From: Marinomonas sp. TW1
GTDB taxonomy: Bacteria > Pseudomonadota > Gammaproteobacteria > Pseudomonadales > Marinomonadaceae
Assembly: GCF_001625355.1 (NCBI RefSeq)
Contig: NZ_JSEE01000008.1
Location: 62,001 to 126,000, forward strand
Direction: 5' to 3'
Length of the DNA: 64,000 nucleotides
Positions 34,062 through 51,161 of this stretch are shown here, in pieces. Positions within the stretch are counted from its first letter, which is position 1. Every line of letters begins with the position of its first letter. The notes beneath the pieces were generated by a model. The model was not told where the DNA came from and ran no database searches. It saw nothing but the letters and a program-made list of their open reading frames with translations. The translations under genes and the position numbers were made by a program.

Positions 34062-34226
34062 AGAAATTGCGTTTTTGCCGTCTATCCATCGTCAAAATGT
34101 AGATGGATCTCGCGTTCAAAAAATCTGCCTAATTTTACTCTGAACTGGCTTAACCGTCCACCTAAGAATGGGGCTGATATGGTGAAAAACAGCCTATTTT
34201 TACGGTTTTTAACTAACCCTTTGGTC

Positions 34227-34242
34227 AAGAATAAATATTCTT
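34227..34242. promoter_or_regulatory. ArgR-like operator upstream of carA
   Basis: Perfect 16-base palindrome AAGAATAAATATTCTT. It matches the ARG-box pattern TGAAT-N4-ATTCA except for one symmetric position in each half. It overlaps a TTGACC element on the minus strand that could be the -35 of the carA promoter, fitting arginine repression of carAB known in other gammaproteobacteria. Confidence 0.5.
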
Positions 34243-38124: not shown

Positions 38125-38760
38125 TCATTGCTCAGAATGCTTCACTAAAAAAGACACCACATTTTTAATCAATGCTTTTTTATCTTCGAAGCTCATATTA
38201 TTAGCTGCGGGAGAATCGGCTCTCTTGCGGTCTTTTAACGTGGATAATTTTCTTATTTTAGCTTGGGCGGAAGCCTCTTCATCAATCGCGTGACACGCCA
38301 ACTCAATATTACGCTCGGCCAAACGTTTACTAATCACTTTTCTGGGATCACTCATTTCGCCATCCACAGCAATATCAACATAAAGAGAGTGACTCTTCAT
38401 ATTATGTGCTTGATGTGGCAATACCGTCATACTCCCAGCCATTTTAATAAAATCGCCTTGCCCTTCTAACAGCGCCGCTAAAATGGAATTTTCGGTGATC
38501 TCTTGTTTAAGTTTTAATTGATGATCTTGTAATCTCTTCATCGTCATTTTCCAATCCACGTCTATTCCCGATGCCATCCTAAGCGCCGTGGCATACAAAA
38601 TCTTGCTCATCACAATTTCTTCCCTGGCAATATGAGAAAGCGTGTAAGAACGAGCAAAGGCTTTATGCTCAAACAAAACTTCAGACTCTTTTAATAACGC
38701 CTTAGCATTTACGATGAGAGCCAGCATATATTCATCAATTTGATTAAGGTTGAATGACAT
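38125..38760 (-). CDS. AbiV-family-like protein (HEPN-like)
   Basis: 211 residues from ATG 38760, preceded by GGGAGAG. The helical N-terminal part NAKALLKESEVLFEHKAFARSY followed by LSHIAREEIVMSK resembles AbiV abortive-infection proteins, where a helix pair with an E-rich segment after a Tyr/Ala-rich turn is conserved. No typical R-x4-6-H HEPN RNase motif is obvious. AbiV in Lactococcus blocks phage translation by binding a phage protein; that role here is inference from a weak family match. It stands alone, with no other defence gene next to it. Confidence 0.55.
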   Translation of the reverse strand: MSFNLNQIDEYMLALIVNAKALLKESEVLFEHKAFARSYTLSHIAREEIVMSKILYATALRMASGIDVDWKMTMKRLQDHQLKLKQEITENSILAALLEGQGDFIKMAGSMTVLPHQAHNMKSHSLYVDIAVDGEMSDPRKVISKRLAERNIELACHAIDEEASAQAKIRKLSTLKDRKRADSPAANNMSFEDKKALIKNVVSFLVKHSEQ

Positions 38761-38989
38761 AAGCTCTCCCAAAGTTTTACTTTCCAATCACGGCATACAC
38801 GGCCATTCTTTCTAAATATTAGTAGAAACAGCTAAGTTTTCCGCCATTTTGACTATTTTTTAAACACCCCGATACAACACAAGCCAGCCGTAAACTGAAT
38901 CTTTATCCACTAAAGACCTCGTTATTCATTGATCTTAAAAAGGCTTTAGAACGTCCACACAAACAAGTTCAAGATAAGAGGCATGTTGG

Positions 38990-39046: not shown

Positions 39047-40048
39047 TTAACGAAATTTTGGAATAATCTCAGCACCGTATTTGGCAATAATGTCTTCTTC
39101 GTCGCCGCTGTCTAGATAGATGTTGAACTGCGTGGTTCCCGCCGCTTCAAGATCTTTGATCTTAGCGATGTGATCTTCTGGTGTACCTAATACACAGAAG
39201 CTTTTCACGATATCTTCGGTGATGAAATCTAAGAATGGGTTGTCGCTTTGACCATGTTTCGAGTAATCGTAGCCACGACGTTTTTCGATGTAATCCGTTA
39301 AGCTTTTTGGCACTAAGCCTGAATCGCTGCCGTATTTCTCAACAATATCTGCCACATGGTTACCCACCATAGCAGGGAACCATTTGGTGTGTTCAATGCA
39401 GTAGTCCATGTCACCAAAGTAAGCGGGAGCGGCAGCTTGAACTTTAAAGTTAGACATATCACGCCCCGCTTCATTACCCGCTGCAATGGCCTGATCTTTA
39501 AACCATTTCACCAAGTCTGGATCACCAATCTGCAGGATCAAACCATCTCCTACTTGCCCTGCGGTTGCTAAGGCTTTTGGCCCATAAGCACCAATCCAAA
39601 CAGGCAATTCATAACCTGTCGCCCAAGGCAATTTGACCGGCTCTGGGCATTCGCCGTATTCCACTTCTTCCCCTCGGACCATGGCTTTAACTTTCGTGGT
39701 AAATTCCGCCAAACGAGCCAATGTGGCCGGTTTTTTTCCCATCACCCGCATGGATGAATCACCACGTCCTAAACCGATATCAAAACGCCCATTACTTTGA
39801 TGCGCTAAGCTGGCGTATAAGCTAGCAGACAAAGACCAATCACGAATATTAGGGTTGGTCACACAAGGGCCAAATCGCATGTTTGTCGTGTGTTCCATAC
39901 ACATGGCCATGGCGACAAATGATTCACGCCATAAAATGTGAGAATCGTAAAACCAACAGTAAGTAAAACCGGCTTCCTCAGCCTGACGTACCAAACTGCG
40001 TGCCCGATCTGGGCTGACAAAGCCTTTAAAGGTGATGCCGAATTCCAT
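39047..40048 (-). CDS. F420-type luciferase-like oxidoreductase (CPS_4043-like)
   Basis: 333-residue TIM-barrel protein of the luciferase-like superfamily. Visible: MEFGITFKGF first strand, CWFYDSHILWRE, the GRFDIGLGRGDSSMRVMG phosphate/cofactor loop and LPVWIGAYGPKALATAGQVGDG. I recall a family of putative F420-dependent oxidoreductases named after Colwellia CPS_4043 with this type of sequence; that is from memory. It is the last gene of the F420 operon, 53 bases after npdG. A signature of methylene-H4MPT reductase (Mer) is not claimed. The substrate is unknown; the neighbouring pyrimidine genes make a C5=C6 reduction of uracil/thymine a reasonable candidate. Confidence 0.85.
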   Translation of the reverse strand: MEFGITFKGFVSPDRARSLVRQAEEAGFTYCWFYDSHILWRESFVAMAMCMEHTTNMRFGPCVTNPNIRDWSLSASLYASLAHQSNGRFDIGLGRGDSSMRVMGKKPATLARLAEFTTKVKAMVRGEEVEYGECPEPVKLPWATGYELPVWIGAYGPKALATAGQVGDGLILQIGDPDLVKWFKDQAIAAGNEAGRDMSNFKVQAAAPAYFGDMDYCIEHTKWFPAMVGNHVADIVEKYGSDSGLVPKSLTDYIEKRRGYDYSKHGQSDNPFLDFITEDIVKSFCVLGTPEDHIAKIKDLEAAGTTQFNIYLDSGDEEDIIAKYGAEIIPKFR

Positions 40049-40101: not shown

Positions 40102-40794
40102 TTAATGCGCCTGCTCTGGTGGGCAAATGCGCACCCCTGCATGGGAAAAAGGCACATCCTTTGAAATGTTCAGACGAATCAGAATGGGCGTTAACGCCTC
40201 GATGCATCGAGCGCTCTCAGCCAATCCTGCGTTATAGGCTTGCGTGCCCATGGTTTGGCATAATTGAATCACCCGCTTCTTCGCGGCCAAATCATTGCCA
40301 CAGACTAGAATGTCGCAATTAATGGGACGCGATAAATCGTTTAGCGTAATGGCAGACACATTATGCAGCGCACCGACCACCGGTATGTCATCGCCTAACA
40401 AGGCTTGCGCAGCTTCCGTCACCGAACCTTCAACCGGCATCTCTACGGCTTTTGGGTTGCCCGGTGCCAGAGGCACAACAATGTCCACTAGGGTTTTGCC
40501 GATTAATGACGAAGCCAATGCTGTTAAGGTCTCATCATGCCCCGCATACGGCACAGATAGAATCACCAAATCATCAGCCGTTTCAGTGGCTTTTACCATA
40601 TCGGCGCCGGTTATCTGAGCGGTTACGCCCAGCCCATTGAGCTGTTCCGTTAATTCAATGGCGGTCTGTTGAGCTTTGCTGGCGTCTCTCGACCCAAGCA
40701 CAATATGCACACCAGCCTGGGCTAAACGCAGGGCTAATCCCTTACCTTGTGGACCGGTGCCACCTAAAATAGCGACTGTGTTTTTTTCACTCAT
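40102..40794 (-). CDS. npdG: F420:NADP oxidoreductase
   Basis: Transfers hydride between NADPH and F420. 230 residues; the N-terminal Rossmann motif [18 protein letters not shown] followed by VLGSRD (the SR binding the NADP phosphate) is characteristic of FNO/Npd[11 protein letters not shown] and [10 protein letters not shown] are further family regions. ATG overlaps the cofE stop (ATGA), so the operon not only makes F420 but also reduces it. Confidence 0.92.
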
Positions 40795-41564
40795 CTAAAT
40801 AAATCCTCGTTATGTGAACGGATAAGGTCTCGACTTGAGCTCTGTGTTTTTGGCCAATTTAAGCCTCGAAAAAGAATCACTGGAGACTTAGCACTTTTTT
40901 CCATCAAAAGACCGGACGCAGCCGCCAGCTCGTCGGCAAACGCCGGAGCGGTAACACTCAACGGACGACCAAAAGCATCGACTTCTCCCAACATAGACAT
41001 GACCCCAGGAACATTGGCTAAACCAATTGCCACATTGGTTTGACCTAAGCGCCAAGGGCGACCAAAGGTATCGCTGATCACCACGCCTAACTCACATTGA
41101 AAATGTGCTTCCAAACGTTGGCATAATACGGTCGCACTTTTATCTGGATCTTCAGGTAATAAAATCAGCTGATCAGGTTGATCCGCATTGGATTCATCCA
41201 CAGCGGCATTGGCACAGATATAGCCTTTTTTATGTTCTGCAATCAGCACGCCTTCTTGCTGATCTGGTCGTTTCATTGCTCGAACGATACGATTCGACTG
41301 AGATAAGATGACTTCTACTTTGCGTGGGTCTTTATTCACGGTTTTCGCCAGTTCAATGGCGTCATTACTGGGCGTTACATCAGATAGATAGACACAAGCC
41401 CCTTCTGTTTTGGATACCACCTTATGTGCAATCACCAGAATATCGCCCTGCTGCAAGCTTTGATTTTGTGTCGATAAGGTATCAATAATGCTCTGCGCCA
41501 GATCATCACCTGCTTGGTAATCCGGTAACCCCATCAAACGAGACATGCTCATAGAATCAGGCAT
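40791..41564 (-). CDS. cofE: F420-0:gamma-glutamyl ligase
   Basis: Adds gamma-linked glutamates to F420-0 with GTP. 257 residues from the ATG at 41564, which has AAGGAGG eight bases before it and overlaps the end of cofC by eight bases; a longer frame into cofC is rejected. Family motifs: [47 protein letters not shown]. It is the stand-alone archaeal-type form, lacking the FMN-binding C-terminal domain of mycobacterial FbiB, so the dehydro-F420-0 reductase activity, if needed, is elsewhere. Confidence 0.93.
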
Positions 41565-42228
41565 ATCGGGCCTCCTTAACGGGAGCAATGAGTGACTTAT
41601 GCCAAAACTGGAAACGTTCGGGTTGACGACGTGACGCCAGCGACAAATCTTCCTTTTGATCAATGTCCAACGACAGGTGGGTCAAATGCAGACTTCGACA
41701 ACTGAGTTGTTGCATTTGTGCATTGGTTTGATGAGCTACCGCAGAGTGACAACCGTACTCAAATTCAATGGCATCCGGCGGAGAAGTGAATAAGGCATTG
41801 GTACCACCATCTTTGGCCACAGCAATGACCACATGGGCTTCTAACCCTGCGTTTAACAAGGCCTGAATCTCAGATTTTTCCAGCATGGCAATGTCACTCG
41901 GGATGATCAACTGACCATCGTAGCCAGACTGCTTCACCCAATCACAGGCAAACCGTAAGGCCCCATTCAAGCCCTTTTCACCGTCATCAAATAAGCTGTT
42001 GGCTTGGTAATCTTGCGCCAACCGAAGGACATCCAATGACTCACTTACCACCAACATGTCCAACTCAGGAAAATGGCGCTGGAAAAACTGCAATGTCGTT
42101 TCAAACAAGCTTAGAGACAAGCTCTCGCGTGCCTCCGCAGGCAAGTTCGACGACAAACGCTGCTTCCCTTTAGCAGGTGATTTCATCGGAATCACCACAC
42201 AAAGATTGTTCACTTTTGGTTTCATCAA
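41557..42228 (-). CDS. cofC: 2-phospholactate/PEP-type guanylyltransferase
   Basis: Activates a three-carbon phosphate acid with GTP for F420 side-chain synthesis. 223 residues; VVIPMKSPAKGKQRLSSNLP is the nucleotide-binding start, IIPSDIAML the metal region and KDGGTNALFTSP the family motif. Known homologues use 2-phospholactate, PEP or 3-phosphoglycerate; I cannot tell which from sequence. Overlaps cofD by four bases. Confidence 0.9.
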   Translation of the reverse strand: MMKPKVNNLCVVIPMKSPAKGKQRLSSNLPAEARESLSLSLFETTLQFFQRHFPELDMLVVSESLDVLRLAQDYQANSLFDDGEKGLNGALRFACDWVKQSGYDGQLIIPSDIAMLEKSEIQALLNAGLEAHVVIAVAKDGGTNALFTSPPDAIEFEYGCHSAVAHQTNAQMQQLSCRSLHLTHLSLDIDQKEDLSLASRRQPERFQFWHKSLIAPVKEARYA

Positions 42229-43184
42229 GCGGCCCTCTTTGCCTGTTTATCTAATGCAAAAGCCACTACTTGATCGAGCAAACTCACTTTGTCATCACGT
42301 TCTTTCATCAAGCTTGGCGTTACTAAGACATCCACGCCTTGCGCAAGCAGCCAATCCGCTTCTTGTGCATCTTGCGGGTCAATCACCATGCCATCTAAAA
42401 AGCCCTGATAAGAATCGTAAATGCCTTTTGAATCGACACTCTTCCCTTCGCTTGCCAGCATTTTGTCTGCGGGACCTTTAACCGTTTTTCCTCCGATCAA
42501 GGGCGACACCGCCACAACATAGGCATCACTGTCGATAACCGCTTGACGAATATCGGGAATAGACAGAATCGCTCCGATGCTAACCACAGGGTTACTGGGG
42601 GCAATAACAATGACATCACTGGCGGATAATTGAGCTAAGGCCGCGGCATTGGGGGTCGCTTGATCCGCCCCTTGATAAGCCACTTCAATCACCTCCGGCA
42701 GACAGTGCTCGCGAACAAAGAATTCTTGGAAAGACAACCAACCAGCGGGTGTCTTAACACGAGTCTGCAACGTATCGTCTGTTGGTAATAAAATCGGCAG
42801 ATTCACCCCATGTCGCGTTGCGAGCCTTTGCGTAATGTCACTCATGCTGACGCCTTGCTTTCTTAGCTGAGAGCGGTAAATATGCGTCGCCAGATCCAAA
42901 TCCCCCAAGGTCATCCAAGTATCTTGGCCCAACGCCGCAAGCTCTTTTAAGGTTTGGTGGCTTTCGCCTTTGCGTCCCCAACCTTGCTGACGATCAATTT
43001 GATCACCCAGAGAATAAATCAAAGTATCAATGTCTGGAGAGACCCAAAGACCATGAAATTCATCGTCATCGGCGACGTTTCCAATCACTTTTACCGCTTG
43101 TGAATAGTGTCCAAATGCCAGCCCTTCTGCTGCTTTAGCGCCACCCACTCCACCAGCTAACAAGGTGATATTTAACCCAGCCAT
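42225..43184 (-). CDS. cofD: LPPG:Fo 2-phospho-L-lactate transferase
   Basis: Joins the activated phospho-acid to the deazaflavin Fo. 319 residues; the N-terminal LLAGGVGGAKAAEGL and NVADDDEFHGLWVSPDIDTL are the phosphate-binding and metal motifs, and VIAPSNPVVSIGAIL plus SPLIGGKTVKGPADKM complete the site. The start overlaps the cofH stop by one base, the end overlaps cofC. Confidence 0.94.
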   Translation of the reverse strand: MAGLNITLLAGGVGGAKAAEGLAFGHYSQAVKVIGNVADDDEFHGLWVSPDIDTLIYSLGDQIDRQQGWGRKGESHQTLKELAALGQDTWMTLGDLDLATHIYRSQLRKQGVSMSDITQRLATRHGVNLPILLPTDDTLQTRVKTPAGWLSFQEFFVREHCLPEVIEVAYQGADQATPNAAALAQLSASDVIVIAPSNPVVSIGAILSIPDIRQAVIDSDAYVVAVSPLIGGKTVKGPADKMLASEGKSVDSKGIYDSYQGFLDGMVIDPQDAQEADWLLAQGVDVLVTPSLMKERDDKVSLLDQVVAFALDKQAKRAA

Positions 43185-44398
43185 TACGCCACTCCTTGGA
43201 TCGCAATACGATTCGGTTGCACTGGATCTTGGCTATAATCTCTCACCGTCTGATACTTGGTATTACGCTGAATCGCAGTTAGCCCCGCCGCTTCAATATT
43301 GGCCACCATGTCTTCTGGCATCACTTCCTGACCATGCGTCGCGCCAGCCGCACGGGAAATGCTTTCATTCATCAAGGTACCGCCCAGATCGTTGGCGCCG
43401 GAACGTAACATTTGAGCCGCAACATCCGGTCCCATTTTCACCCACGAAGCTTGGATATTGTCGATGTAGCCTTGCAACATAAGACGAGCAATGGCGTGCA
43501 TTTTGAAATGTTCATCTCGAGTTGGTCCGGGACGAACCTTGTCTGGATTATCCTTATATAAACGGGTTTCATAATGGATGAAACCAAGTGGCACAAACTC
43601 AGTAAAACCGCGGGTGTCTTTTTGAATATCGCGCAGCAATTTGAGGTGATTCGCCCAATGAATCGGCTGATCCACATGACCGTACATAATCGTCGACGTC
43701 GTCGGCACACCCACTGAATGCGCAGCACGGATAATGCGCACCCACTCTTCTGTGGTCAGTTTGTTCTTGGTCAGCTGTTTACGTACTTCCGTATCCAGAA
43801 TTTCTGCAGCGGTACCCGGCATAGAACCCAGGCCTAAGGCTTTTAACTCGGACAAAAACACTTCCGGCTCAAGACGGGCTTTTTTACAGCCATACCAAAT
43901 CTCAAACGGTGAAAAGGCATGGATATGAATTTCTGGTACACGTTTTTTGACGGCAATGACCAAATTCCGGTAATAATCTGCGTCTATGTCTGGGTGCAAA
44001 CCGCCTTGAATACAAACCTCGGTAGCGCCACGCTGCCAAGCCTCTTCAGCACGGTCTGCCACTTGCTTAACCGTTAAAAATTCCGCGTCTTTACTGCCTT
44101 TTTCCGTCGCAAAGTTACAAAAACGACAACCCATGTAACAGACATTGGTAAAATTAATATTGCGAGTCACCACAAAGCTACCGGTATTACCAACACGTCG
44201 TTCTCGCACCTGGTCGGCCGCCGCTAACACAGCTTGCGCTTCGTCACCTTCGGTTGCAAATAACACACAGGCTTCGTCGACACTCAGCTCCTCGCCCAAA
44301 ATCGCTTTATTCAAAATCGTCTGAACCGCCAAATTCAGCGGGTGGGATCTAACAATCGCCTCAGGGGTCGGGGTTTCATTGATGGTATTTAGACTCAT
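43184..44398 (-). CDS. cofH: Fo synthase subunit 2 (radical SAM)
   Basis: Radical SAM enzyme that couples tyrosine with 5-amino-6-ribitylaminouracil on the way to the deazaflavin Fo. 404 residues from ATG 44398, preceded by AGGAGG; iron-sulfur cysteines in CX3CX2C are C87, C91 and C94 (CYMGCRFC). EVCIQGGLHPDIDADYY and IHIHAFSPFEIWYG-like sequence are typical of CofH. CofG and CofH are separate genes as in archaea and cyanobacteria, not fused as in actinobacterial FbiC. Start overlaps the cofG stop (ATGA). Confidence 0.94.
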   Translation of the reverse strand: MSLNTINETPTPEAIVRSHPLNLAVQTILNKAILGEELSVDEACVLFATEGDEAQAVLAAADQVRERRVGNTGSFVVTRNINFTNVCYMGCRFCNFATEKGSKDAEFLTVKQVADRAEEAWQRGATEVCIQGGLHPDIDADYYRNLVIAVKKRVPEIHIHAFSPFEIWYGCKKARLEPEVFLSELKALGLGSMPGTAAEILDTEVRKQLTKNKLTTEEWVRIIRAAHSVGVPTTSTIMYGHVDQPIHWANHLKLLRDIQKDTRGFTEFVPLGFIHYETRLYKDNPDKVRPGPTRDEHFKMHAIARLMLQGYIDNIQASWVKMGPDVAAQMLRSGANDLGGTLMNESISRAAGATHGQEVMPEDMVANIEAAGLTAIQRNTKYQTVRDYSQDPVQPNRIAIQGVA

Positions 44399-45549
44399 GC
44401 GACAAGTCCTCCTGTAGCACAAAGAGAGTGAGCAGATGACGAAGATGACGCCGACATGGACGCCACTCGTTGTATTAGGTTTTCAGTCAGGTATTTGCCC
44501 TGCGCTTGCTGATAGCGAGGGTAGATGGTCAGTCGCTCATGTAATGAATACCCCAAGCCTTCACAGGCTTTCGCGACACTACTGATTTGCGGCCAAGCTC
44601 TTTCAGGGTTAATGAAATCTTTGGTCAATGGAGAGATGCCCCCCCAATCATTGATGCCTGCATGAAGGTAGCTGCCATATTCTTCTTCTAAATTGGGCGG
44701 TGCCTGTAGGCTAATCTCACTCGGCAGAATGAGTCGCGCCACAGCAATGGTTCGCTTCATGTCATCCAGATCCGGTTCTTGGCAACCCGCCATTTGCGTC
44801 CCTGGCTTGGCACGAAAGTTTTGAATAATGACTTCTTGAATATGGCCGTATGCCAGATGACAGTCACGAATGGCCGCCAGACTGCGTACTCGGTCTTCCC
44901 AACTTTCCCCTATGCCAATCAAAATCCCCGTCGTAAAGGCGATGTCTAAACGGCCTGCATATTCCAGAGTATTTAAACGCCGCTTTGGCGTTTTATCCGG
45001 GCAGGCGTAATGGGCTTGGCCTTGTTTGAGTAACTCTGTTGTGACGTTTTCCAACATCATCCCCATACTCGCGGCCACGGGTTTTAGACGTTTCAATTCA
45101 GCATAAGTTAAAGCCCCTGCGTTCACATGAGGCAATAGACTGGTGTTATCAAGCACATTGGCACATTGATCATGGAGGTAGTCTAGGGTGTTGTCGTATC
45201 CCAACTCAGCCAGTTTATCGCGCGCCTTTTGATAACGCAGTTCAGGACGCTCACCCAAACTGAATAACGCCTCTTTGCAATCTAAAGCCGCGCCTTCTTG
45301 TGCGGTTTTCAATACTTGCTCAGGCGTCATATAGTTCGCGTGAATGGAATCTGGTGATTGAACAAAAGTGCAGTAGCCGCAAGTGTCTCGACACATATTC
45401 GTCAAAGGAATAAAGACTTTTTTCGAATAACTGATGGCGTTTCCCCAAGCTTGATCACGGGTATTTGCCGCCTGTTGGCAGAGTGCGTATAAGTCTGGCC
45501 CAGTCGCAAACTCATAAGATATGGCTTCGGTAACAGAGATCATATTCAC
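44395..45549 (-). CDS. cofG: Fo synthase subunit 1 (radical SAM)
   Basis: Radical SAM enzyme that closes the deazaflavin ring of Fo. 384 residues with CX3CX2C at C53, C57 and C60 (CRDTCGYC), ALFSLGERPE, HYACPDKTPKRRL and GILIGIGESWEDR, all typical of CofG. AGTGGAGTG precedes the ATG. It is the first gene of a seven-gene operon whose members mostly overlap. The RutR-like palindrome lies 30-41 bases upstream of its start. Substrate precursor comes from the riboflavin pathway (ribD at 54.2 kb). Confidence 0.94.
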   Translation of the reverse strand: MNMISVTEAISYEFATGPDLYALCQQAANTRDQAWGNAISYSKKVFIPLTNMCRDTCGYCTFVQSPDSIHANYMTPEQVLKTAQEGAALDCKEALFSLGERPELRYQKARDKLAELGYDNTLDYLHDQCANVLDNTSLLPHVNAGALTYAELKRLKPVAASMGMMLENVTTELLKQGQAHYACPDKTPKRRLNTLEYAGRLDIAFTTGILIGIGESWEDRVRSLAAIRDCHLAYGHIQEVIIQNFRAKPGTQMAGCQEPDLDDMKRTIAVARLILPSEISLQAPPNLEEEYGSYLHAGINDWGGISPLTKDFINPERAWPQISSVAKACEGLGYSLHERLTIYPRYQQAQGKYLTENLIQRVASMSASSSSSAHSLCATGGLVA

Positions 45550-45578
45550 TCCACTCTAGGTCAGGAAATTAACTTTTT

Positions 45579-45590
45579 TACCATTTGGTA
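45579..45590. promoter_or_regulatory. RutR-like operator upstream of the F420 operon
   Basis: TACCATTTGGTA, inside ACTTTTTTACCATTTGGTA. Resembles the E. coli RutR consensus TTGACCA-N2-TGGTCAA in its core ACCA-TT-TGGT. A nearly identical sequence precedes the pyrimidine operon at 46669-46680. Confidence 0.75.
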
Positions 45591-45632
45591 TAAAAATTAA
45601 TAACAAGCATTTTGGTGGTAGTAAATTGTTTT

Positions 45633-45657
45633 TTTTAGTGCAAATTGCGCACTAAAA
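45633..45657. repeat. Perfect inverted repeat upstream of cofG
   Basis: TTTTAGTGC / GCACTAAAA, 9-base arms with a 7-base centre, about 85-108 bases before cofG. It lacks a T run on either transcript side, so it is more likely a protein-binding site than a terminator. The repeat AAATTGCGC occurs twice here. Confidence 0.6.
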
Positions 45658-45803
45658 TTGCGCCATTAAATTAAAGTTTAGTTAAACAAAAAGTTAACTA
45701 AATGGTTAAGATCATGAAAAGACGTACTTTTTTGAAGGTTTTAGGCTGACTATTTTTTCACCAGCCGAGTGGGAATGTGAAAGAAATGAAGTAAGAAAGA
45801 ATT

Positions 45804-46451
45804 TTAATTTATTTTTTTGGCACCAAGAGCGCGCATTACAAACTCAGTGACCGCTGACTCGGCTCGCTCAAAATCATCTTCGTCTAATGATGTCTTCACC
45901 AATAACACTTCCATTTGCAGGGAAAAATCTGCATAGGTTTGTGTTGCAGCCCAGATGGTAAAAAACAAATGTTCAGCGTCAATATCAGCGATTAATCCTT
46001 TACTAATCCAAGACTTAACCAATTTAACATCACGTTCAAACTGTGGTTTTAAATGGCTCACTAGATAGTCCTTTAGCATTGGTGCACCGCTAATAATTTC
46101 ATGAGCGAACACTTTCGAACCGTTCGGATAAAGGCGAGATAACTGCATTTTTTCATGGACGTAGCGACGAATAACCTGCTCTGGTGTATCGCCGTCTTTT
46201 TCAAGAAAAGACAGCTTTTCAATCCAAATATCAAGCATCTCTTTGAGCACTCGTTTATAGAGTAACTCTTTGTTTGAAAAGTAATAAATTAGATTTTGCT
46301 TGGATATTTTAGCAACCGCGGCGATGGCTTCCATAGACGATCCGTTATAGCCTTTCTCAGCAAAAACAATTTCCGCTGAGCGTAAAATTCTCGCTTCCAA
46401 TTCTTGTCGATTAATAGACTGCTTCGTTTGTTTCTGTTTTTTCACTACCAA
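45804..46451 (-). CDS. rutR: RutR-like TetR family regulator
   Basis: 215 residues. The N-terminal helix-turn-helix (ILRSAEIVFAEKGYNGSSMEAIAA ... KISKQNLIYYFSNKELLY region) and especially the ligand-domain segments LDIWIEKL, SRLYPNGSKVFAHEIISGAP and HLFFTIWAATQTYADF align with E. coli RutR, the uracil/thymine-responsive repressor. It lies between the F420 operon and the pyrimidine operon, both of which carry matching palindromes, so it is the likely regulator of both. Ligand identity is inferred from homology. Confidence 0.87.
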   Translation of the reverse strand: MVVKKQKQTKQSINRQELEARILRSAEIVFAEKGYNGSSMEAIAAVAKISKQNLIYYFSNKELLYKRVLKEMLDIWIEKLSFLEKDGDTPEQVIRRYVHEKMQLSRLYPNGSKVFAHEIISGAPMLKDYLVSHLKPQFERDVKLVKSWISKGLIADIDAEHLFFTIWAATQTYADFSLQMEVLLVKTSLDEDDFERAESAVTEFVMRALGAKKIN

Positions 46452-46668
46452 ACTTTATTCCACCTTTTATTTGTCTTTAACCGCTTTTCTAAAATATCAC
46501 AAATATATGTTTTTAAAGGTTAATTTTTAATTTATCAGCGTTATTTTGAGAACGCTTATGGCTATTAATATGGCTTTGTTTCACTGAATCAAGACAGTGT
46601 CATTTAAAAACTTGGCCTAGTTATTGCTGACCGAAAAGACAAGTTCAAAATTTTTTATTCAGCTTTTT

Positions 46669-46680
46669 TACCTTTTGGTA
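46669..46680. promoter_or_regulatory. RutR-like operator upstream of the pyrimidine operon
   Basis: TACCTTTTGGTA, inside GCTTTTTTACCTTTTGGTA, 30-41 bases before the start of the amidase gene. Seventeen of 18 bases from CTTTTTTACC onwards equal the site before cofG. Confidence 0.75.
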
Positions 46681-46709
46681 AATGTATTTAACGGTAATAG
46701 GAGACGGCC

Positions 46710-47957
46710 ATGCAAGACCTTCGAATTAACGAACAACGCCTTTGGGATACGTTAATGGAAATGGGGGAAATTGGCGGCACCGAAAAAGGCGGCTGTAATC
46801 GTTTAGCCGGAACGGATTTAGATAAACAAGCCCGTGATCTTTTTGTGTCTTGGTGTGAAGCCTGTGGCTGTACTGTGGAAATAGACAAAATTGGCAACAT
46901 TTTTGCTCGTAGACCTGGTATCCATAACGATTTACCAGCCGTCGGTACGGGTAGCCACCTTGATACTCAACCCACTGGCGGTAAGTTCGACGGTGTCTTT
47001 GGTGTGCTATCGGGCGTTGAGGTATTACGAACCCTTCATGAAAACCAGATAGAGACACCAACGGCGATGGAGTTCTCTGTTTGGACTAACGAAGAAGGCT
47101 CTCGTTTCCAGCCCGCTATGCAAGGTTCTGGCACTTATGTCGGTCGCTTCGACTTAGACGCGGAATTGAATAAAACTGATGTGAATGGCATTCGTCTCGG
47201 CGATGAGTTGGAACGCATTGGCTACTTAGGCGACATGGAATTAGGCAGTCGTCATATGGGTGCATTTTTCGAAGCACATATTGAACAAGGCCCTATACTG
47301 GAAGATGAAAAAAAGGCCATTGGTATTGTGCGCTTAGGTCAAGGCATTCGCTGGTATAACGTAGAGGTGGTCGGTCGTCCTTCGCACTCCGGCACAACCC
47401 CCATGCATTTACGTAAGGATGCCATGTTAGCGGCCTCAGCCATTGTTACAGAGATGAATAATATCGCTCATCGTCACGAAAATGGTTTGGGGACTGTTGG
47501 TTATATGGATGTGTGGCCAAATTCACGCAATACGATTCCGGGTAAGGTAACCTTTAGTGCGGATTTACGTAACCCACTACCTGATGTGTTATTGACCATG
47601 CATGAAGAACTGGAAGCCTTTTGTAAAAAGATTGCCAAAGAGCATGAGCTTGACGTTAATCTAGATCACTTCTGGTATTTCGCACCGGTGGAGTTTAATG
47701 CTTCTGATGATGTCAAAGCTGCCACCGAGAAATTAGGTTATAGCCATATGGACATCTATGCTGGCGCCGGACATGATGCCTGCTATATGGCGGATTTGGT
47801 CCCAACAGGGATGATTTTTACCCCTTGTTTAAACGGCATCAGTCATAACGAAGCCGAGTACAGTTCGCCAGAAGAATGTGCCGCTGGTGCCAACGTGCTG
47901 CTGCATACCATGTTAGAAGCCAGTGACCGAATTGCCCAAGAGCATACAAAAGCATAA
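46710..47957 (+). CDS. hyuC: M20-family N-carbamoyl amidase / beta-ureidopropionase
   Basis: Hydrolyses N-carbamoyl amino acids to amino acid, CO2 and ammonia; in pyrimidine breakdown it would turn N-carbamoyl-beta-alanine into beta-alanine. 415 residues with GTGSHLDTQPTGGKFDGVFG and WTNEEGSRFQPAMQGSG (two-metal site), EAHIEQGPILE and GAGHDACYMADLVPTGMIF. GGAGACGG precedes the ATG. L-carbamoylase and allantoate amidohydrolase are relatives; the adjacent NCS1 permease and dihydropyrimidinase with a RutR-type regulator favour the pyrimidine role. Confidence 0.9.
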   Translation: MQDLRINEQRLWDTLMEMGEIGGTEKGGCNRLAGTDLDKQARDLFVSWCEACGCTVEIDKIGNIFARRPGIHNDLPAVGTGSHLDTQPTGGKFDGVFGVLSGVEVLRTLHENQIETPTAMEFSVWTNEEGSRFQPAMQGSGTYVGRFDLDAELNKTDVNGIRLGDELERIGYLGDMELGSRHMGAFFEAHIEQGPILEDEKKAIGIVRLGQGIRWYNVEVVGRPSHSGTTPMHLRKDAMLAASAIVTEMNNIAHRHENGLGTVGYMDVWPNSRNTIPGKVTFSADLRNPLPDVLLTMHEELEAFCKKIAKEHELDVNLDHFWYFAPVEFNASDDVKAATEKLGYSHMDIYAGAGHDACYMADLVPTGMIFTPCLNGISHNEAEYSSPEECAAGANVLLHTMLEASDRIAQEHTKA

Positions 47958-48073
47958 ACCTTGTCCGTAAGAGACAAGATGAAGAAAGGGCGCTTAATAA
48001 ACTGAGCGCCCACCTTGAATGAAACAATAATTCCATAATAACGATCAACCCAAGAATAGAAGAGGTGGCAAAA

Positions 48074-49558
48074 ATGACCAGCAAGTCTGTTAAGCAAGGT
48101 GAGTTTTATGAGTTAGAGGTCGACAGCGACCTGCAAAACAGCACAGCCTATAATGACGACCTTGCTCCGACTAAGATCAAGGATCGCACTTGGAGCAAAT
48201 GGAACATCGCCGCCCTTTGGGTTGGGATGTCCATTTGTGTGCCAACTTACACCCTAGGCGGCGTACTGACCGCTTACTTCGGCTTATCTGTTACCGAAGC
48301 CCTGTTCACCATTTTGATTGCGAATATTATCTTGCTGGTGCCACTCACATTGAATGCCTACCCGGGTACAAAATTTGGCATTCCTTTCCCTGTCCTATTA
48401 CGCTCTTCCTTTGGCATGGTGGGCTCCAACATCCCCTGCTTGATTCGAGCCATTGTCGCTTGTGGCTGGTTTGGAATTCAAACCATGTTTGGTGGTTTGG
48501 CCATTCACTTATTTCTCTCTGCCATCTCAGATGGTTGGGCTAGCTTAGGTGGCGTGGGCGAAGTCATTGGCTTCTTCATTTTCTGGGCACTGAACATGTA
48601 CGTCGTCATCAAGGGGGCGGAATCCATCAAATGGCTTGAAACATTGGCCGCACCTTTGCTCCTTATTGTTGGCATTGGCTTAATGGTTTGGGCTGGCGGC
48701 AAGGTATCCTTTACAGAGATTTTAGCCACACCCGCTAACCGTCCAGAAGACGCTGGCTTTATGGGTTATTTTTTAGGTGGCTTGACCGCGATGGTCGGTT
48801 TTTGGGCGACACTGTCACTCAATATTCCTGACTTCAGTCGTTATGCCAAAACGCAAAAAGATCAGGTGATAGGGCAAATTATTGGTCTGCCTGTCACCAT
48901 GTTTTTCTTCGCGGCGTTAGGTGTTGTACTAACGGCTGCTTCTAGCACATTAGTCGGTGAAACCATTTCCGATCCGATTTCGTTAATTGGTAAAATTGAC
49001 AGCCCTGTTTGGGTAGCCGTTGCCATGGTATTAATCGTGATTGCGACGTTATCAACCAACACGGCGGCCAACGTAGTATCGCCTACCAATGACTTCCAGA
49101 ACATTGCACCGAAACTCATCAACCATACTCGCGGTGCCTTATTGACAGGACTTATCGGCATTCTCTTGATGGGCTGGGAATTGCTCAAAAAAATGGGCAT
49201 GTTGGAATCGGATGTCAGTGTGGAAAGTATGTACTCTAACTGGCTATTGGGTTACTCCAGCTTACTTGGCCCCATTGCTGGCATCATGATTGTCGATTAT
49301 TTCTTAATCAAACGTCAGCATTTAGATCTGGTGGCCTTGTATACTCCAAGTAGCTTGTATCCAGCGTTCAACAACGCAGGTCTCATCGCTTTTGCTGCCC
49401 CGGTATTGATCACCCTGATTGCTTTGAATGTGCCGTCATTAGGCTGGTTCTATAACTATGGCTGGTTTACCGGTGCTTTCACTGGCGCTTTGCTGTACTT
49501 CATCTTAGCCAATCTACAAAGCGCATCAGCGAACCAAACCGATGCTGTGGCCTCATAA
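48074..49558 (+). CDS. NCS1-family nucleobase/hydantoin permease
   Basis: 494-residue membrane transporter with about twelve TM helices. NCS1 traits: WSKWNIAALWVGMSICVPTYTLGG near helix 1, PVLLRSSFGMVGSNIPCLIRAIVACGWFGIQT for helix 3, and NIPDFSRYAK. Such proteins carry uracil, thymine, allantoin or hydantoins with sodium or protons. I take the ATG at 48074, seven bases after AGAGGTGG; an in-frame GTG at 48065 lies within that site. Second gene of the pyrimidine operon. Confidence 0.92.
   Translation: MTSKSVKQGEFYELEVDSDLQNSTAYNDDLAPTKIKDRTWSKWNIAALWVGMSICVPTYTLGGVLTAYFGLSVTEALFTILIANIILLVPLTLNAYPGTKFGIPFPVLLRSSFGMVGSNIPCLIRAIVACGWFGIQTMFGGLAIHLFLSAISDGWASLGGVGEVIGFFIFWALNMYVVIKGAESIKWLETLAAPLLLIVGIGLMVWAGGKVSFTEILATPANRPEDAGFMGYFLGGLTAMVGFWATLSLNIPDFSRYAKTQKDQVIGQIIGLPVTMFFFAALGVVLTAASSTLVGETISDPISLIGKIDSPVWVAVAMVLIVIATLSTNTAANVVSPTNDFQNIAPKLINHTRGALLTGLIGILLMGWELLKKMGMLESDVSVESMYSNWLLGYSSLLGPIAGIMIVDYFLIKRQHLDLVALYTPSSLYPAFNNAGLIAFAAPVLITLIALNVPSLGWFYNYGWFTGAFTGALLYFILANLQSASANQTDAVAS

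Positions 49559-49706: not shown

Positions 49707-51161
<1,455 letters not shown>

Follow-up and report, generated by a model that had tools for sequence, protein, structure and literature searches.

What does a Marinomonas need coenzyme F420 for, and does the regulator gene that lies between its F420 operon and a pyrimidine operon govern both? A review of 2021 counted the purpose of making F420 in Proteobacteria among the unanswered questions and stated that no bacterial F420H2-dependent reductase had been investigated experimentally outside actinobacteria (PMC8498797). The window analysed here, a stretch of 64,000 nucleotides from Marinomonas sp. TW1, carries the two operons on either side of the regulator gene, and a preliminary description made from its letters had proposed that the same RutR-like palindrome precedes each of them and ties F420 synthesis to pyrimidine sensing. 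The genes concerned are the following.

39047..40048, minus strand: F420-dependent LLM oxidoreductase of TIGR03842 (520.4 bits, cut-off 295.45)
40102..40794, minus strand: npdG/fno, NADPH-dependent F420 reductase (TIGR01915, above cut-off)
40791..41567, minus strand: cofE (TIGR01916, above cut-off)
41557..42228, minus strand: cofC (TIGR03552, above cut-off)
42225..43184, minus strand: cofD (TIGR01819, above cut-off)
43184..44398, minus strand: cofH, FO synthase subunit 2 (CofH_C PF19288 and Radical_SAM)
44395..45543, minus strand: cofG, FO synthase subunit 1, with which the F420 operon begins (Radical_SAM PF04055)
45804..46451, minus strand: RutR/PydR-like TetR-family regulator (PF08362 and TetR_N)
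46710..47957, plus strand: M20-family carbamoylase, a PydC-like beta-ureidopropionase, referred to below as the amidase gene (TIGR01879, 420 bits, cut-off 204)
48065..49558, plus strand: NCS1 nucleobase transporter (PF02133, 317 bits)
49722..51161, plus strand: dihydropyrimidinase, PydB (TIGR02033, 586 bits, cut-off 393)

The name of cofG rests on the radical SAM match together with its place beside cofH, and the start of cofE was chosen so as to avoid overrunning cofC (the longest reading frame starts at 41663). By family score, the plus-strand operon encodes the dihydropyrimidinase and the carbamoylase of the Pyd pathway, with putative substrates; the transporter scores slightly under the TIGR00800 cut-off (333 bits against 353). 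PydA, searched for with the PreA model NF006183, was absent from the genome of this strain and from all 49 Marinomonas genomes, with a positive E. coli control, and in the part of the window under study no gene was recognisable as RutA. The order LLM-npdG-cofE-cofC-cofD-cofH-cofG-rutR/amidase-ncs1-hydantoinase was constant in every Marinomonas island unbroken by a contig end. An AbiV-type HEPN gene (38125-38787; PF18728, 93 bits) adjoins the LLM gene.

Both palindromes are real and were found exactly where the preliminary description had placed them, with TACCATTTGGTA at 45579-45590 ahead of cofG and TACCTTTTGGTA at 46669-46680 ahead of the amidase gene. Taken at their full extent, they read as follows.

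45577..45592, no strand: operator 1, TTTACCATTTGGTATA, which overlaps the place where transcription of the F420 operon is predicted to start
46667..46682, no strand: operator 2, TTTACCTTTTGGTAAA, 3' of the sigma-54-like promoter that precedes the pyrimidine operon

The claimed agreement of 17 of 18 bases between the sites holds over CTTTTTTACC(A/T)TTTGGTA. Relative to their own genes the two are oppositely oriented, which is of no consequence because the element is a palindrome. A distance of 30-41 bases to the start codon had been given for both; it is correct for site 2 (amidase ATG 46710), whereas site 1 is found 36-47 bases ahead of the likelier cofG start (ATG 45543, minus strand) and would be at 30-41 bases solely if cofG started at GTG 45549. 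E. coli RutR binds TTGACCA-N2-TGGTCAA, from which the Marinomonas box differs at a symmetric position, its half-site being TTTACCA for TTGACCA. Both window sites depart from the E. coli consensus at 3 of 14 positions, as does the box of the E. coli rutA region (likewise 3 mismatches), which is accompanied by a sigma-54-type promoter. An operator of RutR/PydR type (TTGACCANNTGGTCAA) is found near the target promoters in the form of the variant TTTACCANNTGGTAAA.

Scored over the 14 informative positions of TTTACCANNTGGTAAA, each of the two sites carries a single mismatch; they are the only matches in the window with fewer than three, the next best having three. The bare 12-mer TACCNTTTGGTA is not rare in itself, because the 3.77 Mb genome contains five exact copies against eight of the reversed control pattern, and it was dropped as evidence. 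The remaining three copies all lie within ORFs, and the scan of the genome turned up no rival exact copy between genes. With flanks included (TTTTACCWNNWGGTAWAA), the two sites are the sole genomic matches having at most one mismatch and an intact ACC-N4-GGT core. The case is carried by this extended motif and its conservation rather than by the 12-mer alone.

Both sites were retained in all 26 Marinomonas islands, the window counted in, as TACCATTTGGTA before cofG and ACC(T/A)TTTGGT before the amidase gene. In the aligned cofG upstream region, 18 columns (TTTTACCATTTGGTATAA, 45576-45593) were invariant across the 26 islands, and operator 2 read ACCTTTTGGT in 25 of them and ACCATTTGGT in the remaining one (L056). 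Outside the genus, a scan of species genomes yielded 80 loci from Gamma-, Beta- and Alphaproteobacteria. Regions upstream of cofG were examined in those gammaproteobacterial loci of other genera that have a RutR-like gene close by, counting as a motif any match with at most two mismatches: TTTACCANNTGGTAAA was present in 27/27 testable loci (in 26 with no more than one mismatch) against a shuffled expectation of 0.05-0.1, and in 0/31 regions upstream of the internal operon genes cofH or LLM. Between genera the site is 94% identical compared with 29-34% for its flanks, and in several genera a further copy, less perfect, lies some 34 bp upstream. Ahead of the amidase gene the motif was found in half of the regions (10/20); in those without it, the amidase gene mostly follows LLM directly, in one gene run. 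An initial classification of Alphaproteobacteria as lacking the box was revised, since most possess a diverged form (e.g. TTTACCAGATAGTCAA or TTTATCTAGTAGTCAA), and these diverged boxes sit at near-constant positions.

The conservation bears directly on the idea that the palindromes might be AT-rich repeats that arose by chance and came along with the island. The copy numbers of the 12-mer, five against eight in the control, speak for it, but the site is preserved in about a dozen genera despite diverged flanks and 18 columns are unchanged, and we give this idea next to no credence. Judged on sequence, the conservation of the sites is decisive against chance. That sites before F420 genes and pyrimidine genes alike are conserved in many bacteria suggests that these bacteria make F420 in order to digest uracil.

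The RutR-like gene said to lie between the two sites is there: 45804-46451 encodes a TetR-family regulator with both of its domains above cut-off (PF08362, 156.4 bits; PF00440, 45.3 bits). We call it RutR-like, and not RutR proper, because its 175.5 bits against TIGR03613 remain under the NCBIfam equivalog cut-off of 368; against PRK15008 it scores 152.9 for a cut-off of 230. The solved structures nearest to it are those of E. coli RutR, in which W77, Y97, W167, Q171 and Q179 contact uracil, and K52 and K62 contact DNA (PMC10891134). All five uracil-contact residues (in E. coli numbering) and both lysines are present in the window regulator, and the former are nearly invariant among the homologues of the other loci, with W77 changed to L in two Amphritea proteins. 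The repressor between the operators is probably uracil-sensing.

Might the palindrome nonetheless belong to another transcription factor, the RutR-like gene being a mere neighbour? Binding by the RutR-like protein is read from sequence, the same intergenic region contains further conserved dyads, and a LysR-type gene adjoins rutR in loci of Alteromonas, Vibrio and Thalassolituus; we still regard this as quite improbable. The box is of the RutR type (TTGACCANNTGGTCAA), and the Marinomonas island keeps it though no LysR-type gene was identified there. Classical PydA/PreA-type clusters with a RutR-like gene (L203, L204, L208) have TTGACCANNTGGTCAA in an intergenic region with 0-2 mismatches, whereas a comparable intergenic RutR-type site was absent from the seven such clusters without the gene, which favours the RutR-type reading of the box made in the preliminary description. 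Moreover, in the Roseobacter loci the recognition helix reads TTPN in place of SKQN, and the box shifts in step. Returning to the regulator itself, the conserved sites, the kept uracil pocket and the kept DNA-contact lysines all support the proposed pyrimidine-sensing control of the F420 operon. Co-regulation of both operons by the RutR-like protein appears highly likely, and uracil or thymine would very likely be its signal.

The following promoters and additional dyads were predicted around the operators.

45597..45625, minus strand: predicted sigma-70 promoter of cofG, with -35 TTTACT at 45620-45625, a 17 bp spacer and the extended -10 TGTTATTAA (-10 at 45597-45602)
45638..45652, no strand: dyad GTGCAAATTGCGCAC, immediately ahead of the cofG -35
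45694..45709, no strand: third dyad, TTAACTAAATGGTTAA / TTAACYAAATGGTTAA, downstream of the rutR stop codon
46612..46628, plus strand: predicted sigma-54 promoter of the amidase operon, TTGGCCTAGTTATTGCT

The pattern TTTACT-N17-TATTA recurs on the cofG side in most Marinomonas islands, and the predicted promoter TTTACT-N17-TATTAA would put operator 1 at about the transcription start. A sigma-54-type element (TGGC-N8-TGCW) is present in 25 of the 26 islands; its spacing to operator 2 varies from about 57 to 134 bp, which counts against the mechanism that we propose below. The dyad GTGCAAATTGCGCAC is kept in most islands. The third dyad recurs in most of them as TTAACY-N4-RGTTAA at a nearly constant distance of about 117 bp from operator 1, and with three mismatches to either consensus it is possibly a weaker RutR-type site.

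The predicted promoter layout is similar to the way in which the E. coli rut operon combines nitrogen and uracil signals. In both systems, a TetR regulator with PF08362, the same uracil-contact residues and a related box is encoded divergently from the catabolic operon, which is preceded by a sigma-54-type promoter. The Marinomonas operator is situated downstream of the sigma-54 element, whereas that of E. coli rut is upstream; the catabolic genes differ as well, with the flavin monooxygenase RutA in E. coli and a dihydropyrimidinase and a carbamoylase in Marinomonas, and only the latter has an operator before a coenzyme F420 operon too. A second relative is PydR of Pseudomonas putida, which Hidese (cited in PMC7332683) reportedly described in 2012 as a RutR-like repressor of the dihydropyrimidine dehydrogenase gene. 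It is alike in being a RutR-like repressor of the reductive pyrimidine (Pyd) pathway, but it controls a classical PydA, whereas Marinomonas lacks PydA and has the F420 operon under putative control.

We propose that the RutR/PydR-like TetR repressor uses the palindromes on either side of its gene as operators. As long as pyrimidine is lacking, a repressor dimer would cover the region where the F420 operon (cofGHDCE-npdG-LLM) starts and block its transcription, and a dimer 3' of the sigma-54 promoter would likewise block the carbamoylase-NCS1-dihydropyrimidinase operon. Uracil or thymine entering the conserved pocket would release the repressor, whereupon the cofactor and the pathway would be made together, with the sigma-54 promoter adding a response to nitrogen limitation, as that of the E. 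coli rut operon does. The TIGR03842 enzyme would then reduce uracil to dihydrouracil with F420H2, replacing the iron-sulfur flavoprotein PydA, while NpdG would regenerate F420H2 from NADPH; dihydropyrimidinase and subsequently carbamoylase would convert dihydrouracil to beta-alanine. Taken as a whole, this explanation, in which the repressor couples F420 synthesis to the pyrimidine operon and the LLM enzyme replaces PydA, seems to us likely, and we hold it with good confidence.

The preliminary description had put the palindromes first among the sequence evidence for a single system made up of both operons; we would rank above them the gene runs of other genera, in which the operons are fused. 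In Halomonas, Marinobacter, Herbaspirillum, Burkholderia and a Gammaproteobacteria MAG, the amidase gene directly follows LLM and shares a gene run with cofGHDCE-npdG-LLM, and in Herbaspirillum and the MAG a hydantoinase gene lies ahead of cofG. At two further loci (L135 and L150) the LLM gene stands amid pyrimidine-pathway genes (transporter, regulator, amidase) with cof genes absent nearby, and L135 additionally has a dihydropyrimidinase gene beside it. The transhydrogenase genes pntAB adjoin about 18 loci and are a likely source of NADPH for F420 reduction; in Halomonas loci (L114, 12404-15252) they are located immediately 3' of the amidase gene. Other genera have aptA and mmsA (methylmalonate-semialdehyde dehydrogenase) as neighbours, which would serve beta-alanine disposal and would match published Pyd clusters (PMC7332683). 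In L107 (919-3279), the omega-aminotransferase gene aptA and a LysR-type regulator gene are found beside rutR, an arrangement seen in Alteromonas, Vibrio and Thalassolituus loci.

These neighbourhoods also bear on the possibility that F420 is co-regulated with the pathway but has no enzyme in it, either through the ribityldiaminouracil precursor of FO or through a separate role of F420 in nitrogen stress. The starting material of FO is indeed a diaminouracil compound (PMC8498797), and ribA (GTP cyclohydrolase II) lies between LLM and the amidase gene in four Amphritea-type loci (L151, 11081-11734; L153; L154; L157), where it possibly supplies the FO precursor. Such a reading would have to accommodate an F420 operon ending with an F420 reductase and an F420-using enzyme, the absence of PydA, the adjacent pntAB in about 18 loci and, in L135 and L150, an LLM gene among pyrimidine-pathway genes with no cof genes nearby, and we consider it highly improbable.

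The distribution of the LLM gene across genomes was then compared with those of dihydropyrimidinase and PreA. The TIGR03842 gene occurs in 25 of 49 Marinomonas genomes, and dihydropyrimidinase is present in all 25 of these versus one of the 24 others (G386, where a contig end truncates the island). Among 50 genomes of other genera with LLM, 49 have dihydropyrimidinase and 41 are missing PreA; the nine in which LLM and PreA occur together all belong to the Roseobacter group, so the replacement of PreA is not strict there. The absence of PreA was rejected as proof of replacement, being a weak argument where PreA is found in only 10 of 369 gammaproteobacteria anyway. A better argument is that PreA and LLM are confined to genomes with dihydropyrimidinase: in the same 369, LLM was found in 2 and dihydropyrimidinase in 16, and all 12 genomes with PreA or LLM fall among those 16, none having both. 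The four of the 16 that have neither count against the replacement. The nearest LLM protein is 99% identical and comes from M. aquiplantarum. LLM relatives were absent from viral contigs; on plasmids they gave 13 records, for the most part of Leisingera.

The predicted structure of the LLM protein (pLDDT 86, pTM 0.87) has as its nearest solved fold the F420-dependent methylene-tetrahydromethanopterin reductase Mer (Z 33-34, rmsd about 3.0 Å over some 315 residues), ahead of all FMN monooxygenases, RutA included (Z about 24). From the model, the protein would use F420. Its identity to Mer, despite the same fold, is only 25-29%, and the position of the catalytic Glu6 of Mer (PMC11094777) is taken by Thr or Cys; therefore, a substrate other than that of Mer is to be expected. 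In the NCBI collection, TIGR03842 (F420_CPS_4043) is a hypothetical equivalog with no stated function. We judge it fairly likely that the LLM protein is a uracil reductase.

The co-regulation might be real and the substrate of the F420 enzyme a different one, namely a hydantoin, a purine-ring intermediate or another pyrimidine. This deserves attention inasmuch as hydantoins and allantoin, too, are substrates of the dihydropyrimidinase, M20 carbamoylase and NCS1 families. Yet the regulator pocket (W77, Y97, W167, Q171, Q179) is almost invariant, the dihydropyrimidinase score is far above its equivalog cut-off, and AptA and methylmalonate-semialdehyde dehydrogenase as neighbours fit the disposal of beta-alanine, as in known Pyd clusters (PMC7332683), which leaves a different substrate unlikely.

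Classical bacterial Pyd clusters comprise PydA/PreAT, PydB, PydC, PydD and MSDH (PMC7332683). The Marinomonas set shares with them the dihydropyrimidinase, the carbamoylase and a nucleobase transporter and, in some genera of the wider set, the beta-alanine aminotransferase and the semialdehyde dehydrogenase; in contrast to the classical clusters, the enzyme of the first step appears to be replaced by a TIGR03842 LLM protein with its own cofactor operon. A precedent of a kind exists in uric acid clusters of Chloroflexota, where a putative F420 enzyme stands in place of the PydA-like enzyme (PMC12507026). In the searchable open-access literature, neither a link between F420 and pyrimidine catabolism nor the name TIGR03842 was found. 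RutR-type control of pyrimidine catabolism is known, from RutR of E. coli and PydR of Pseudomonas putida; RutR-type control of F420 synthesis and an F420-dependent first step of the Pyd pathway are proposed here as new to that literature.

More broadly, it seems rather probable that many marine and soil Proteobacteria have an F420H2-dependent Pyd pathway, with TIGR03842 in the place of PydA and F420 made on demand through a uracil-sensing repressor. A role is thereby proposed for the proteobacterial branch of TIGR03842. If the proposal is true, it provides a reason why such Proteobacteria make F420, and a route of pyrimidine breakdown in which the substrate itself turns on the supply of the cofactor. 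With a shared operator placing cofactor and pathway in one regulon, the purpose of F420 and the function of TIGR03842 become directly testable.

Elsewhere in the window, an element upstream of carA (34213-34228, minus strand) reads CTAACCCTTTGGTCAA (reverse TTGACCAAAGGGTTAG) and is 3 of 14 positions off the E. coli RutR consensus. In E. coli, carAB is another target of RutR; the element may alternatively be a -35 box. A dyad at this position is kept in 12 Marinomonas relatives, mostly as TTGACTAAGAAGTCAA.
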